Source: Hyphomonadaceae bacterium (GTDB lineage: Bacteria > Pseudomonadota > Alphaproteobacteria > Caulobacterales > Aquidulcibacteraceae). From it: 64,000 bases of DNA. Made by a program: the position numbers and the translations under genes. Positions 15,291 through 44,291 of this stretch are shown piece by piece (within the stretch, counting starts at the first letter, position 1; every line of letters begins with the position of its first letter). The stretch is taken from positions 474,501-538,500 of the forward strand of contig JAHBYF010000004.1 in the NCBI GenBank assembly GCA_019636095.1, written 5' to 3'. The notes below the pieces were generated by a model. That model did not search any database. It had not been told where the DNA came from and saw only the letters and a program-made list of their open reading frames with translations.

Positions 15291-17924
15291 TCAGCTCATC
15301 GCTTCGGCGATCAATGAGGCCGCGTCTTCCAGAACCGCCTCGTCGGCGCCGCCGCGGACGCCGACTTTTCCCATCTCCAGCATGACCGGTGCGGCGAAGG
15401 GCGAGACGTGCGGCAGATCGCGATGCACGATCTTGCCCTTGATGCGCGCCAGGAGCGCGCCGACGCGTTTGATGTCGAGATAGCCCTCACCGGCGTCGGC
15501 GAAGGCGGCCTGCATCAGAATATGATCGGGCTCGTATTGTTTGAGCACGTCGTAGATCAAATCGGCGGAGAACGTGACTTGGCGTCCGGTCTTGCGTTCA
15601 GCGCCAGGGGCGTTGCGGCTGATCATGCCGGCGATGACAGCGCATTTCGAAAATGTCGATTTCATCAGCGTACTTTCGCCGAGCCAAGATTCGAGATCGT
15701 CACCAAGCATGTCTTCGTCGAAAAGCTGGGTGAAATCGATGTCGCCCATTGGCTCTAACCCCCAAACGGCCATGGCGTACTCGCTGGCGAGGAAACCGAT
15801 GGGGTTCTTGCCGAGGCGCTCAAGGCGGCGTGTGACCAGAACGCCGAGCGTCTGCTGCGCGAGGCGGCCTTCGAACGGATAGCAAACAAGATAGTGCTTG
15901 CCGCCGCGCGGGAAGGTTTCGATCAACATTTCGTCCGGCGCGGGCACAACCGAGCGGCGTTTCTGCATCTTGATCCATTCGCGCACCTGCGGCGGCAGAG
16001 CCTTCTGCCGCTTCGGCTCATGCAGCATGAGTCGCACGCGATCAGCCAAGAATGTCGAGAGCGGAAACTTGCCGCCGGCGTAGGACGGCACCTTCGGACT
16101 TTGCTGATCGCTGGCGCGGACGACGAGCGCGTCGGTTTCGCGTACGCCGATCAGGCGTAGAATTTCGCCGGCGAATAGGAACGTATCGCCAGGCGCCAGG
16201 CCTTCGATGAAATATTCCTCGATCTGACCCAGGCGCCGGCCGGCGACGAGTGGCGACGGCCCCTCTTTCTTCGGCGTTCCAGGCCGCGGACGCGCACCGG
16301 CGCGATGCGCCAAGCGGACGTCCAGCATCTCGGACTCCACAATGGCGCCGACATTCATGCGATGTTGCTGGGCGACGGAGGCATTGCGCGCACGCCAGCG
16401 ATTGGTGTGCGGGTCTTGGACGATGCGGCGATAGCGATCATAGCTGCGGAGCGCATAGCCGCCGGTGGCAACGAGATCGACGCTGCGATCAAATTGCGCG
16501 CGGGCGAGATTTTGGTAGGGCAGCGTGCTGACAATCTCGGCGTAGAGTTCGTCCGCGTCGAACGGTTCGCCGCAGGCGCAGCCCATGACGTGCTGCGCGA
16601 GACAGTCAAGGCCTCCAATACGGCGCGACTCGCCATCCAAGGCGCCCTCCTTCACCGCTTCCTGCGCTGAGCGGCATTCGAGGACTTCGAAACGATTGCT
16701 TGGCGCGAGAAGGGCGCGCGAGGGTTCGTTGTAGCGATGGTTGGCGCGGCCAATGCGTTGGACAAGGCGCGCGCAGCCCTTCGGCGCACCGATCTGGATG
16801 ACAAGATCAACGTCGCCCCAGTCGATGCCAAGGTCGAGGGTGGACGTGCAGACAACGGCGCGAAGCTTGCCATCGGCCATCGCGGCTTCGACCTTACGCC
16901 GCTGCGCGACATCGAGAGAGCCGTGGTGGAGCGCGATAGGTAAGCCGTCATCATTCACGCGCCAAAGCTCTTGGAACGTCATCTCCGCTTGCGCTCGGGT
17001 ATTGACGAAGACCAGCGCCAGTTTGGTGCGCTTGATCGTCTCGTAGATTTCCGGAATGGCGTGGCGGGCTGTGTGACCTGACCAAGGAATGTGCGCGTCA
17101 GAATCAAGCACATCGATGACAGGTTGCGCGCCCGGAGGGGCGCGGACGATGATGTCCGTGCCTTCTCCCCTTCTCCCTTGCGGAGAAGGGGTCGGGGGAT
17201 GAGGGGCGCTCAAACGCCCCGGCGCCTGCACGTCGGAACGCCCCTCACCCGGCCGCTGCGCGGCCACCCTCTCCGCAAGGGAGAGGGTTGAAGCGTTGCC
17301 CATCAGCCATCGCACCAGGCCTTCTTCATCCGCGACCGTTGCACTCAGGCCGATGCGCCGATGCGTGGGCGCCCAGCGTTGCAAGCGCGCCAGAGCGAGC
17401 GCAAGCAGATCGCCACGCTTCGTCGGCGCGAGCGCGTGAATTTCATCGATGATGATTGCTTGTAGGTCTTCAAAAAAGACGCTCGCGTGCTCGGATGCGA
17501 TGAGCAAGGACAATTGCTCGGGCGTGGTGAGCAAGATGTCCGGCGGTTGCGCACGTTGGCGTTGGCGTTTGGACGGCGGCGTATCGCCGGTGCGGCTTTC
17601 GATGCGCACGCCAAGCTGCATTTCGCTCGCGGGCGTATTGAGGTTACGGGCAACATCGGTCGTCAGCGCCTTCAACGGCGAAATGTAGAGCGTGTGCAAG
17701 CGGTGCGGCCGGCGCGAGCCTTCGGCCTTCAGTGGCGCCAACTCAATCAGGCTCGGCAAAAAGCCGGCCAAAGTCTTGCCAGCGCCGGTTGGCGCGATCA
17801 GCAAGGTGGACAAACCGGCTTGCGCGCGCGAGATGAGTTCGAGTTGATGGGGCCGCGGGGCCCAGCCGCGCGCGGCAAACCATTCCTCGAATGGCGATGG
17901 CAACAAAGGCGCGCGGGCGTCCAC
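15291..17924 (-). CDS. ligase-associated DEXH helicase (Lhr-type) with in-frame repeat insertion
   Basis: A superfamily 2 helicase of about 877 residues. Motifs: Walker A APTGAGKT near residue 45, DEIH box IIIDEIHALAP near 160, SAT motif GLSATVADEEG near 195, and motif VI QRIGRANHR in the second RecA domain, then a long Lhr-core C-terminus. It matches the ligase-associated DNA damage response helicase, the partner of PdeM, an MBL exonuclease and an ATP-dependent ligase; the last two are not in this window. Between the SAT motif and the second RecA domain, about 44 residues (APHPPTPSPQGRRGEG and flanks) are encoded by a palindromic repeat. Start: GTG 17924 chosen; TTG 17942 is an alternative. 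Confidence 0.9.
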   Translation of the reverse strand: MDARAPLLPSPFEEWFAARGWAPRPHQLELISRAQAGLSTLLIAPTGAGKTLAGFLPSLIELAPLKAEGSRRPHRLHTLYISPLKALTTDVARNLNTPASEMQLGVRIESRTGDTPPSKRQRQRAQPPDILLTTPEQLSLLIASEHASVFFEDLQAIIIDEIHALAPTKRGDLLALALARLQRWAPTHRRIGLSATVADEEGLVRWLMGNASTLSLAERVAAQRPGEGRSDVQAPGRLSAPHPPTPSPQGRRGEGTDIIVRAPPGAQPVIDVLDSDAHIPWSGHTARHAIPEIYETIKRTKLALVFVNTRAQAEMTFQELWRVNDDGLPIALHHGSLDVAQRRKVEAAMADGKLRAVVCTSTLDLGIDWGDVDLVIQIGAPKGCARLVQRIGRANHRYNEPSRALLAPSNRFEVLECRSAQEAVKEGALDGESRRIGGLDCLAQHVMGCACGEPFDADELYAEIVSTLPYQNLARAQFDRSVDLVATGGYALRSYDRYRRIVQDPHTNRWRARNASVAQQHRMNVGAIVESEMLDVRLAHRAGARPRPGTPKKEGPSPLVAGRRLGQIEEYFIEGLAPGDTFLFAGEILRLIGVRETDALVVRASDQQSPKVPSYAGGKFPLSTFLADRVRLMLHEPKRQKALPPQVREWIKMQKRRSVVPAPDEMLIETFPRGGKHYLVCYPFEGRLAQQTLGVLVTRRLERLGKNPIGFLASEYAMAVWGLEPMGDIDFTQLFDEDMLGDDLESWLGESTLMKSTFSKCAVIAGMISRNAPGAERKTGRQVTFSADLIYDVLKQYEPDHILMQAAFADAGEGYLDIKRVGALLARIKGKIVHRDLPHVSPFAAPVMLEMGKVGVRGGADEAVLEDAASLIAEAMS
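17167..17287. repeat. inverted pair of palindromic repeat units inside the helicase gene
   Basis: Unit B (17167-17191) is CCCCTTCTCC-CTTGC-GGAGAAGGGG, a perfect 10-bp hairpin. Unit A (17267-17287) is CCCTCTCC-GCAAG-GGAGAGGG, an 8-bp hairpin. The loops are reverse complements, and each unit has a matching GAGGGG or CCCCTC flank (17201-17206 and 17241-17246). The units are thus inverted copies of one element. Such CTCTCC-GCAA-type repeats are familiar as intergenic elements in many proteobacteria; here the pair lies in coding sequence and keeps the frame open. Confidence 0.8.
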
Positions 17925-18007
17925 GCCCTCTATGTAGCGCAACGGCGCCCAGATCGAAGCCCCTGCCCGCCGTTGAGTGGCCGCAATTGGCGTGGCATTG
18001 TCGCGGC

Positions 18008-42490: not shown

Positions 42491-43530
42491 GCCTCAGAGA
42501 AAAACTTATTGAGCATATTCGCGACAACGGCCCGCTTACGGTCGCGGAATATATGGGCGCGTGCCTTTATGATCCCGACGACGGCTACTACGCCACACGC
42601 CCCGGCATCGGCGGCGCCGGCGCCGACTTCCTGACAGCGCCTGAAGCGAGTCAAATGTTCGGCGAGCTGATCGGGCTTTGGTGCGCGCATGAGTGGGACG
42701 CGCTCGGCAAGCCGGCGTTCAACTGGATCGAGCTTGGGCCGGGGCGCGGCGTGCTGATGGAAGACGCAATCCGGGCAACCACGCGCATCGACGGCATGCA
42801 CGAAGCGGCGACTGTGGTGCTGGTCGAAACCAGCGCGCCACTGCGCGACGAACAAGCCGAGCGCGTGCCAGACGCCGAGTGGGAATCCCGCATCGAAGAG
42901 GTTTCGCCGGGGTCGTGCATCATCGTCGCCAACGAGTTCTTTGATTGTCTGCCGATCCGACAATTCGTGCGCGGCGAAAACAGTTGGCACGAGAAACTCG
43001 TCGGCCTCGATGAAGCTGAGCACCTCACTTTCGGCTTGAGCGCTGCGATCCCTGCGCCAGACACCGAAGATGAAGTTGGCGCCGTGCGCGAGATTGCGCC
43101 CGGCCTCGACAGCATCATCTACGACCTCGAACGGCGCCTTCATGACGCGCCCGGTCGCGTGCTGATCATCGACTACGGCTACGCCAAGCCTGAAGGCGCT
43201 GACACGCTACAAGCGCTTAAGAACCACCAGAAAGTCGATCCGATCGAAACGCCGGGCGAGGCTGATCTGACCGCGCACGTTGACTTCGCGCGCATCGCGC
43301 AGCTTGCGTCGGATGCCAACTTACTGGTGCATGGGCCGATCACACAGGGCGCGTTCTTGCGTGCGCTTGGGCTTGAATTCCGTGCTGAAGCGCTTTCGCG
43401 CGCCAATCCTTCGCACGCCGAGCGGCTGAAACGTGAAGTGCGGCGCTTGACGCATGCCGACGAAATGGGCGCATTGTTCAAAGTGATATGCCTGTCGAGC
43501 CCCAACCTGCCGCCGCCGGCGGGCTTTTGA
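42487..43530 (+). CDS. MidA-like (NDUFAF7-type) SAM methyltransferase
   Basis: A 347-residue class I methyltransferase of the MidA/DUF185 family. Conserved N-terminal GPLTVAEYMGACLYDPDDGY, then AGADFLTAPEASQMFGELIG, SAM-binding IELGPGRGVLMED and VANEFFDCLPIRQFVR. Eukaryotic NDUFAF7 methylates an arginine in complex I NDUFS2; the bacterial role is probably similar but not established. Start GTG 42487 overlaps the lgt stop (GTGA). The 3' end overlaps pgeF. Confidence 0.92.
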   Translation: MSLREKLIEHIRDNGPLTVAEYMGACLYDPDDGYYATRPGIGGAGADFLTAPEASQMFGELIGLWCAHEWDALGKPAFNWIELGPGRGVLMEDAIRATTRIDGMHEAATVVLVETSAPLRDEQAERVPDAEWESRIEEVSPGSCIIVANEFFDCLPIRQFVRGENSWHEKLVGLDEAEHLTFGLSAAIPAPDTEDEVGAVREIAPGLDSIIYDLERRLHDAPGRVLIIDYGYAKPEGADTLQALKNHQKVDPIETPGEADLTAHVDFARIAQLASDANLLVHGPITQGAFLRALGLEFRAEALSRANPSHAERLKREVRRLTHADEMGALFKVICLSSPNLPPPAGF

Positions 43531-44291
43531 GCGCCCCGCCCTCATCGCGCGCCGGCGTGCTCGGCGGCGTGAAGCACGGCTTCTTTGGCCGCGAAGGCGG
43601 CGTGTCGTCGGGAATTTATGCTTCGCTCAACGCGGGCACAGGTTCGAAGGACGACCCGGCGAATGTGTTGGAGAACCGTCGCCGTATCGCGGCGGCATTC
43701 GGCGTGGAGCGCGATCACCTCTGCGGCGTGCACCAGGTCCACTCGCCCACCGCCGTTTTCATCGATGGGCCGTGGACAGCCGAACGGCCACACGCGGATG
43801 CGCTCGTCACAACTACACCGAACCTCGCGATTTCCATTCTCACCGCAGACTGTACCCCGATCTTGTTCGTCGACGCAGACATCAAGGTCATCGGCGCAGC
43901 GCATGCCGGCTGGCGCGGCGCGCTTGCTGGTGTCATCGAAAACACCTTGCGCTTGATGGAAGAGAAAGGCGCAGAGCGCAGTCGAATATCCGCCGCCGTC
44001 GGCCCCTGCATCCACCAAAGTTCCTACGAGGTCGGCCCAGAGTTCGAGGCGGAGTTTATTGCAACTGATGCAGGCTTCGCGCGCTTCTTCGCTCAAGGCG
44101 CGGGCGATCGCCTGCACTTCGATCTTCCGGGCTTTTGCGCATCACGCCTCGAAGCCGCCGGCGTGGCGCAGATCGAAACACTGCCGCTCGATACTTACGC
44201 AGAATCCAAGCGACTCTATTCGCATCGCCGCTCGGTTCACGAGAAAGCGGGCGATTATGGACGCAATTGCAGCGCCATCATGCTCGGATGA
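43527..44291 (+). CDS. pgeF: peptidoglycan editing factor PgeF (laccase-domain)
   Basis: A 254-residue protein of the DUF152/laccase-domain family. PgeF removes misincorporated amino acids from UDP-MurNAc-peptides. Zinc ligands are visible: His72 (HQVHSPTA), Cys109 (TADCTPI) and His126 (AAHAGWRGA). I place the start at TTG 43527, overlapping the MidA stop as TTGA, giving MSAPPSSRAGVLGGVKHGFF. The ATG at 43488 is an alternative that would overlap MidA by 43 bases. It is followed by a VanX-type dipeptidase gene (ATGA overlap). Confidence 0.9.
   Translation: MSAPPSSRAGVLGGVKHGFFGREGGVSSGIYASLNAGTGSKDDPANVLENRRRIAAAFGVERDHLCGVHQVHSPTAVFIDGPWTAERPHADALVTTTPNLAISILTADCTPILFVDADIKVIGAAHAGWRGALAGVIENTLRLMEEKGAERSRISAAVGPCIHQSSYEVGPEFEAEFIATDAGFARFFAQGAGDRLHFDLPGFCASRLEAAGVAQIETLPLDTYAESKRLYSHRRSVHEKAGDYGRNCSAIMLG

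Follow-up and report, generated by a model that had tools for sequence, protein, structure and literature searches.

A REP-dimer-like palindromic element in frame in an Lhr-type helicase, and the turnover of unrelated repeats at its linker

Why does a helicase gene carry two inverted hairpins in frame upstream of its second RecA domain, and did this segment arrive once, arrive repeatedly or become part of the working protein? We address this question for a minus-strand gene in a 64,000-nucleotide stretch of alphaproteobacterial DNA, called the window here. The segment is likely to be a copy of a selfish, non-autonomous REP-dimer-like or REPIN-like element that selection has filtered into tolerant loops. 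The features concerned are the following.

15291 to 17942, minus strand: lhr-type gene for a ligase-associated DEXH box helicase, host of the insertion (TIGR04121, Lhr domains, 5v9x).
17162 to 17293, minus strand: in-frame palindromic element, REP-dimer-like, 132 bp or 44 codons, with the peptide STLSLAERVAAQRPGEGRSDVQAPGRLSAPHPPTPSPQGRRGEG (repeat comparison, folding, low pLDDT).
17167 to 17191, strand not applicable: hairpin unit CCCCTTCTCC-CTTGC-GGAGAAGGGG, in the half without the extra small hairpin (inverted repeats, compensatory changes).
17197 to 17250, strand not applicable: inverted repeat GATGAGGGGCG ... CGCCCCTCACC at the centre, which connects one half to the other (inverted repeat, copy comparison).
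17251 to 17265, strand not applicable: extra small hairpin GGCCGCTGCGCGGCC, in one half of the element only (copy comparison).
17267 to 17287, strand not applicable: hairpin unit CCCTCTCC-GCAAG-GGAGAGGG (inverted repeat, compensatory changes).

The element and its host gene

The host protein (883 residues as listed, counted from TTG) scores 1050.8 bits against NCBIfam TIGR04121 (cut-off 850), contains DEAD, Helicase_C, WH_Lhr and DEAD_assoc domains according to the domain search and has Lhr of M. smegmatis (5v9x) as its top solved structure. Sequence similarity places it with the ligase-associated DEXH helicases in the Lhr group. The insert takes up residues 217-261 approximately, after LSATVADEEGLVRWL on the side of the SAT motif and before IIVRAPPGAQPVIDVLDSDA, and the second RecA domain lies downstream, with a Helicase_C match that begins at residue 298. 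An in-frame position between the SAT motif and this domain had been proposed in a preliminary description of the locus, and it holds: the reading frame is intact through the insert, and the TIGR04121 match consists of two stretches, one on each side, interrupted only around the insert. In an AlphaFold2 model based on an alignment of 48 rows, block means of pLDDT are 72-95 in the RecA domains, and pLDDT is 30-50 over most of the insert (below 50 at residues 219-222 and 230-259), which is therefore predicted to form a disordered loop. The helicase probably carries this loop as 44 translated residues with little effect on its activity.

Both hairpins of the preliminary description are present at the positions it gave. 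They are complementary to each other (90% over 21 nt), the one at 17167-17191 has arms of 10 bp and a loop of 5 nt, and no other inverted pair of that length was found in the whole window at the settings used. Comparison with other copies placed the termini, CTTCTCC... and ...GGGTTGAAG, at about 17162-17293; the borders thus moved by a few bases from the original 17157-17288, and the length of about 44 codons stands. Read on the gene strand, the first part of the element is CTTCAACCCTCTCC-CTTGC-GGAGAGGG followed by the small GGCCGCGCAGCGGCC hairpin, and the second part is the central inverted repeat GGTGAGGGGCG...CGCCCCTCATCC followed by CCCCTTCTCC-GCAAG-GGAGAAGGGGAGAAG. Folded as single-stranded DNA, the element is far more stable than 200 shuffled versions of it (z = -6.6). 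Compensatory changes were found at six pairs among 21 copies, and the small hairpin differs in sequence between copies with its pairing kept, one pair being C-G in 11 copies and G-C in 8. The Rfam search with the element returned a chance match only. A 36-nt match to the element at 43502-43537 (81%, E 0.002) was also judged to be a probable chance similarity.

Turnover at the Lhr linker and in two further loops

Twenty-eight congeneric Lhr genes had readable linkers. Eighteen carry an open insert, eight have a short linker (L047, L048, L050-L053, L056 and L057), and two are broken inside the insert by two stops or a frameshift (L038 in G022, L058 in G023). Insertion is therefore not always harmless, unless the breaks in G022 and G023 reflect assembly or long-read errors. 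Several close homologues lack the segment, as the preliminary description expected, and its proposal that the linker tolerates insertion is in line with the 18 open inserts and the predicted disorder of the loop. The insertion is not a single event: unrelated repeats have entered this linker on many occasions, in this genus and in other Alphaproteobacteria.

On a 33-leaf Lhr tree from which the linker was left out, nine switches between presence and absence of the insert are required. The constant position of the insert in the genus-wide alignment could be read as the mark of a lone insertion in the ancestor of the genus that later diverged, was lost or was gene-converted by other genomic copies. 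Degenerate or half-deleted remnants in G017, G020 and G005 would fit such a history, and gene conversion would make an insert resemble the other copies of its own genome, as seen in the present genome (G000), where the Lhr insert reaches scores of 61-102 with each of the non-Lhr copies tested and no more than 60 with the Lhr inserts from other species. We nevertheless consider a single ancestral insertion improbable, since the site holds at least two unrelated repeat families within the genus, for which mutual conversion is not expected. The sisters G007 and G020, at a distance of about 0.008 in the Lhr tree, have unrelated inserts within nearly identical flanking DNA. Likewise, the sisters G001 and G014 carry different repeat types, and in G001 and G004 the insert is of another repeat family, with 35-40 matches per genome. 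The linker is short in all readable outgroup genera of the family except G041, which also argues against an old insertion, as do repeat-like inserts at the same linker in Mesorhizobium, Rhodopseudomonas pseudopalustris and several MAGs; those of Mesorhizobium form yet another family that is multi-copy there. In other genera and orders, repeat-like inserts of different types occupy this linker (L134, L137, L174, L175, L138, L190, L255, L239 and L095).

The same turnover is apparent in two other proteins, with counts taken by eye from the alignment. At least three types of in-frame palindromic insert fill the UvrC loop after FARMLxERxE and before DGGVDFSKERD, in about 20 of 25 congeners that are fully readable (loci compared: L003 in G000, C10, and L358-L385). 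In RsmE, one loop is filled by in-frame inserts in about ten congeners, among them a further type, WTAGVPAAMP...DAGGP (loci compared: L002, L075 and L388-L415). The UvrC insert of G026 (L369) contains VIPDQVRDD, which looks like a CGTC-type REP nested in another repeat.

We thus favour a selfish element sorted by selection. The closer likeness of the G000 insert to the non-Lhr copies than to any Lhr insert from another species also speaks for it. Such an element, made of two hairpin units in inverted orientation and about 125-132 bp long, would have placed a copy in lhr by insertion rather than by conversion only. Its copies would land in many places, and those within genes would survive where they meet a solvent-exposed loop in that orientation and frame, the only one to be free of stops and to yield a hydrophilic, proline-rich peptide; there they may be nearly neutral. 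One loop each in UvrC and RsmE and, in Lhr, the one that follows the SAT motif would be tolerant in this sense. Through its tolerance the Lhr loop would have been filled, vacated and filled anew many times, with unrelated repeat families at work in one lineage and another. Some proteins would then seem to possess 'safe harbours' for palindromic DNA. A bolder proposal is that these and other loops are true insertion hot spots for unrelated palindromes across the Alphaproteobacteria, owing to targeting by sequence or process and not to mere tolerance, and that DNA-repair genes are preferentially hit. We hold this to be rather unlikely.

Copies in other genes and the common frame

Judged by search matches, the present genome contains about five full copies of the element and several partial ones, and 25 of 30 genus genomes match it (E <= 1e-5). 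The repeat is thus multi-copy and not limited to lhr, as the preliminary description supposed; its further statement that such repeats are normally intergenic is only partly correct, because conserved genes hold three of the five full copies in frame (lhr; uvrC, L003; rsmE, L002). These three have the same orientation, frame and peptide, T-x-SL-x-E-x-VA...EGRSD-x-QAP-x-x-L-x-APHPPTPSPQGRGG. The peptide of the stop-free frame is hydrophilic and proline-rich (SLAEKVA..EGRSD.QAP..LNAPHPPTPSPQGRGG). Orientation and frame are common to all family-matched in-gene copies, namely those in Lhr, RsmE and UvrC and, from other congeners, in PdhB, MnmC, ChrA, PutA and PolA. More in-frame copies were found in UvrD, RsmB, GlyS, IleS, EpmA and a second PolA.

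Stops leave one to four of six frames open in each copy and so cannot by themselves explain the common frame. The chance of a shared frame amounts to a product of 1.9e-7 for 15 copies, a value that is indicative only, as the sample is biased: it consists in part of best matches to an in-gene query, by which in-frame copies are over-represented. The codon-model split into genic and intergenic copies was rough, for it missed the family-confirmed copies in RsmE, MnmC and PutA and flagged spans that contain stops; the in-frame assignments given here therefore rest on family matches. Two long spanning open reading frames (L061 and L064), which had no family match, were taken as spurious.

The common frame bears on whether the segment is read at all. 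Its strong hairpin recalls bypassing elements, and the segment might be left untranslated through ribosome bypass or removed by RNA or protein splicing. We find this hardly credible. Open inserts are stop-free and a multiple of three in length (18 of 20 in Lhr, likewise in UvrC and RsmE), and they share one frame across genes, neither of which would be needed if the segment were skipped. From these lengths and the shared frame we infer that translation runs through the insert.

A constant peptide frame could also be the signature of a selected function, in which the insert would serve as a disordered arm that binds a partner or, at the level of mRNA, as a hairpin that slows translation between the RecA domains. 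The host genes, which encode DNA repair enzymes, RNA-modifying enzymes and tRNA ligases as for other REPs (PMC3733652), would suit such a role. Its absence from eight congeners, however, and the inserts of sister genomes, which agree in neither sequence nor length nor family, make a functional role very unlikely, and the AlphaFold2 model places no structure there. We therefore retain the selfish element as the preferred explanation, and the genus offers natural before-and-after pairs in which to follow how a newly gained disordered loop affects a repair enzyme.

Relation to known palindromic repeats

A literature search for this pattern in free-living Alphaproteobacteria retrieved one REP survey alone (Di Nocera et al. 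2013, PMC3733652). It describes intragenic REP dimers that favour genes for repair and for tRNA synthetases; the GTAG and CGTC super-families are inverted dimers of short hairpins that occur in many copies, some within open reading frames to which they add encoded residues. Hosts listed there are UvrABC, UvrD, PolA, tRNA synthetases and RNA modifiers, and recB of two Xanthomonas species carries different REPs at about the same site (PMC3733652). The present element resembles these intragenic dimers in its inverted hairpins, its many copies in open reading frames and its similar repair, tRNA and RNA-modifier hosts. It differs in that each copy encodes about 40-44 residues and in that unrelated families re-fill one and the same loop in many species, some sisters of which have it empty. 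Unlike in GTAG REPs, no GTAG adjoins either stem in the consensus of 21 copies. CGTC REPs lack a dedicated transposase and are defined by A-T as their first stem pairs together with a tag that reads CGTC, TGTC or CCTC (PMC3733652). The present element is likewise an inverted dimer with no linked transposase among the Y1_Tnp genes, but its first stem pairs are C-G and no CGTC, TGTC or CCTC tag adjoins them.

Two inverted REP-like hairpins separated by a spacer, together with a RAYT-type transposase gene in the same genome (NF047646; L090:1432-2175 in G000, C9), also recall the REPIN/RAYT system. That gene, however, adjoins an array of its own, in which a 73-bp repeat with no relation to the Lhr element occurs about nine times in tandem. 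No full copy of the element was found at any of 30 Y1_Tnp loci in the genus; 26 had no match at all, and the other four (L090, L341, L344 and L345) had partial matches of 40-49 nt to Lhr inserts. Moreover, several element-rich genomes have no Y1_Tnp match. RAYT was accordingly rejected as the mobiliser. Neither a target-site duplication nor a mobilising enzyme was identified for the element, which would presumably be moved by an enzyme.

Palindromes encoded within proteins are best known from Rickettsia. The Rickettsia palindromic elements (Ogata et al. 2000, 2002) are described, in PMC10969869 and PMC3767692, as many-copy palindromes of 100-150 bp that lie in frame in unrelated housekeeping genes, encode a conserved peptide and sit at solvent-exposed sites of the protein. 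The present element is comparable in its 132 bp, its about five full copies plus partial ones and its in-frame occurrence with a common peptide in unrelated genes (Lhr, UvrC, RsmE, PdhB, MnmC, ChrA, PutA and PolA). Its host, however, is GC-rich and outside the Rickettsiales. The likeness drawn in the preliminary description is one of behaviour, by analogy, and REP dimers inside genes (PMC3733652) are the closer precedent. ERIC and RU elements with open reading frames inside genes, as presented in parts of Delihas 2007 (PMC2759123), are similarly small, mobile and read as part of their host genes, but they are enterobacterial repeats and of different sequence, and those parts do not describe turnover at one site. 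The element is a new REP-like family, without GTAG or CGTC tags or RAYT linkage, whose behaviour appears analogous to that of the Rickettsia elements. What it adds to known REPs and Rickettsia elements is the repeated occupation of single loops by multiple families.

According to PMC3767692, the Rickettsia orthologs studied all carried the insert at the site, which left hot spot versus ancestral insertion unsettled. Here, by contrast, empty and differently filled orthologs coexist; a single genus of about 30 genomes shows the site empty, full, broken or filled by another repeat, and the question becomes directly testable. As a caution, where an annotated alphaproteobacterial protein contains an odd stretch rich in proline, in-frame repeat DNA can lie behind it.

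Large internal repeat-like inserts in the Lhr alignment occur mainly in the loop after the SAT motif, rarely in a second loop (residues about 546-563) and nowhere else. This minor site lies in the winged-helix region at 16245-16307 of the window (residues about 546-566) and holds inserts in L033, L054, L055 and L145 (Devosia). The residues GPSPLVAGRR of the present Lhr at this site may be a remnant.
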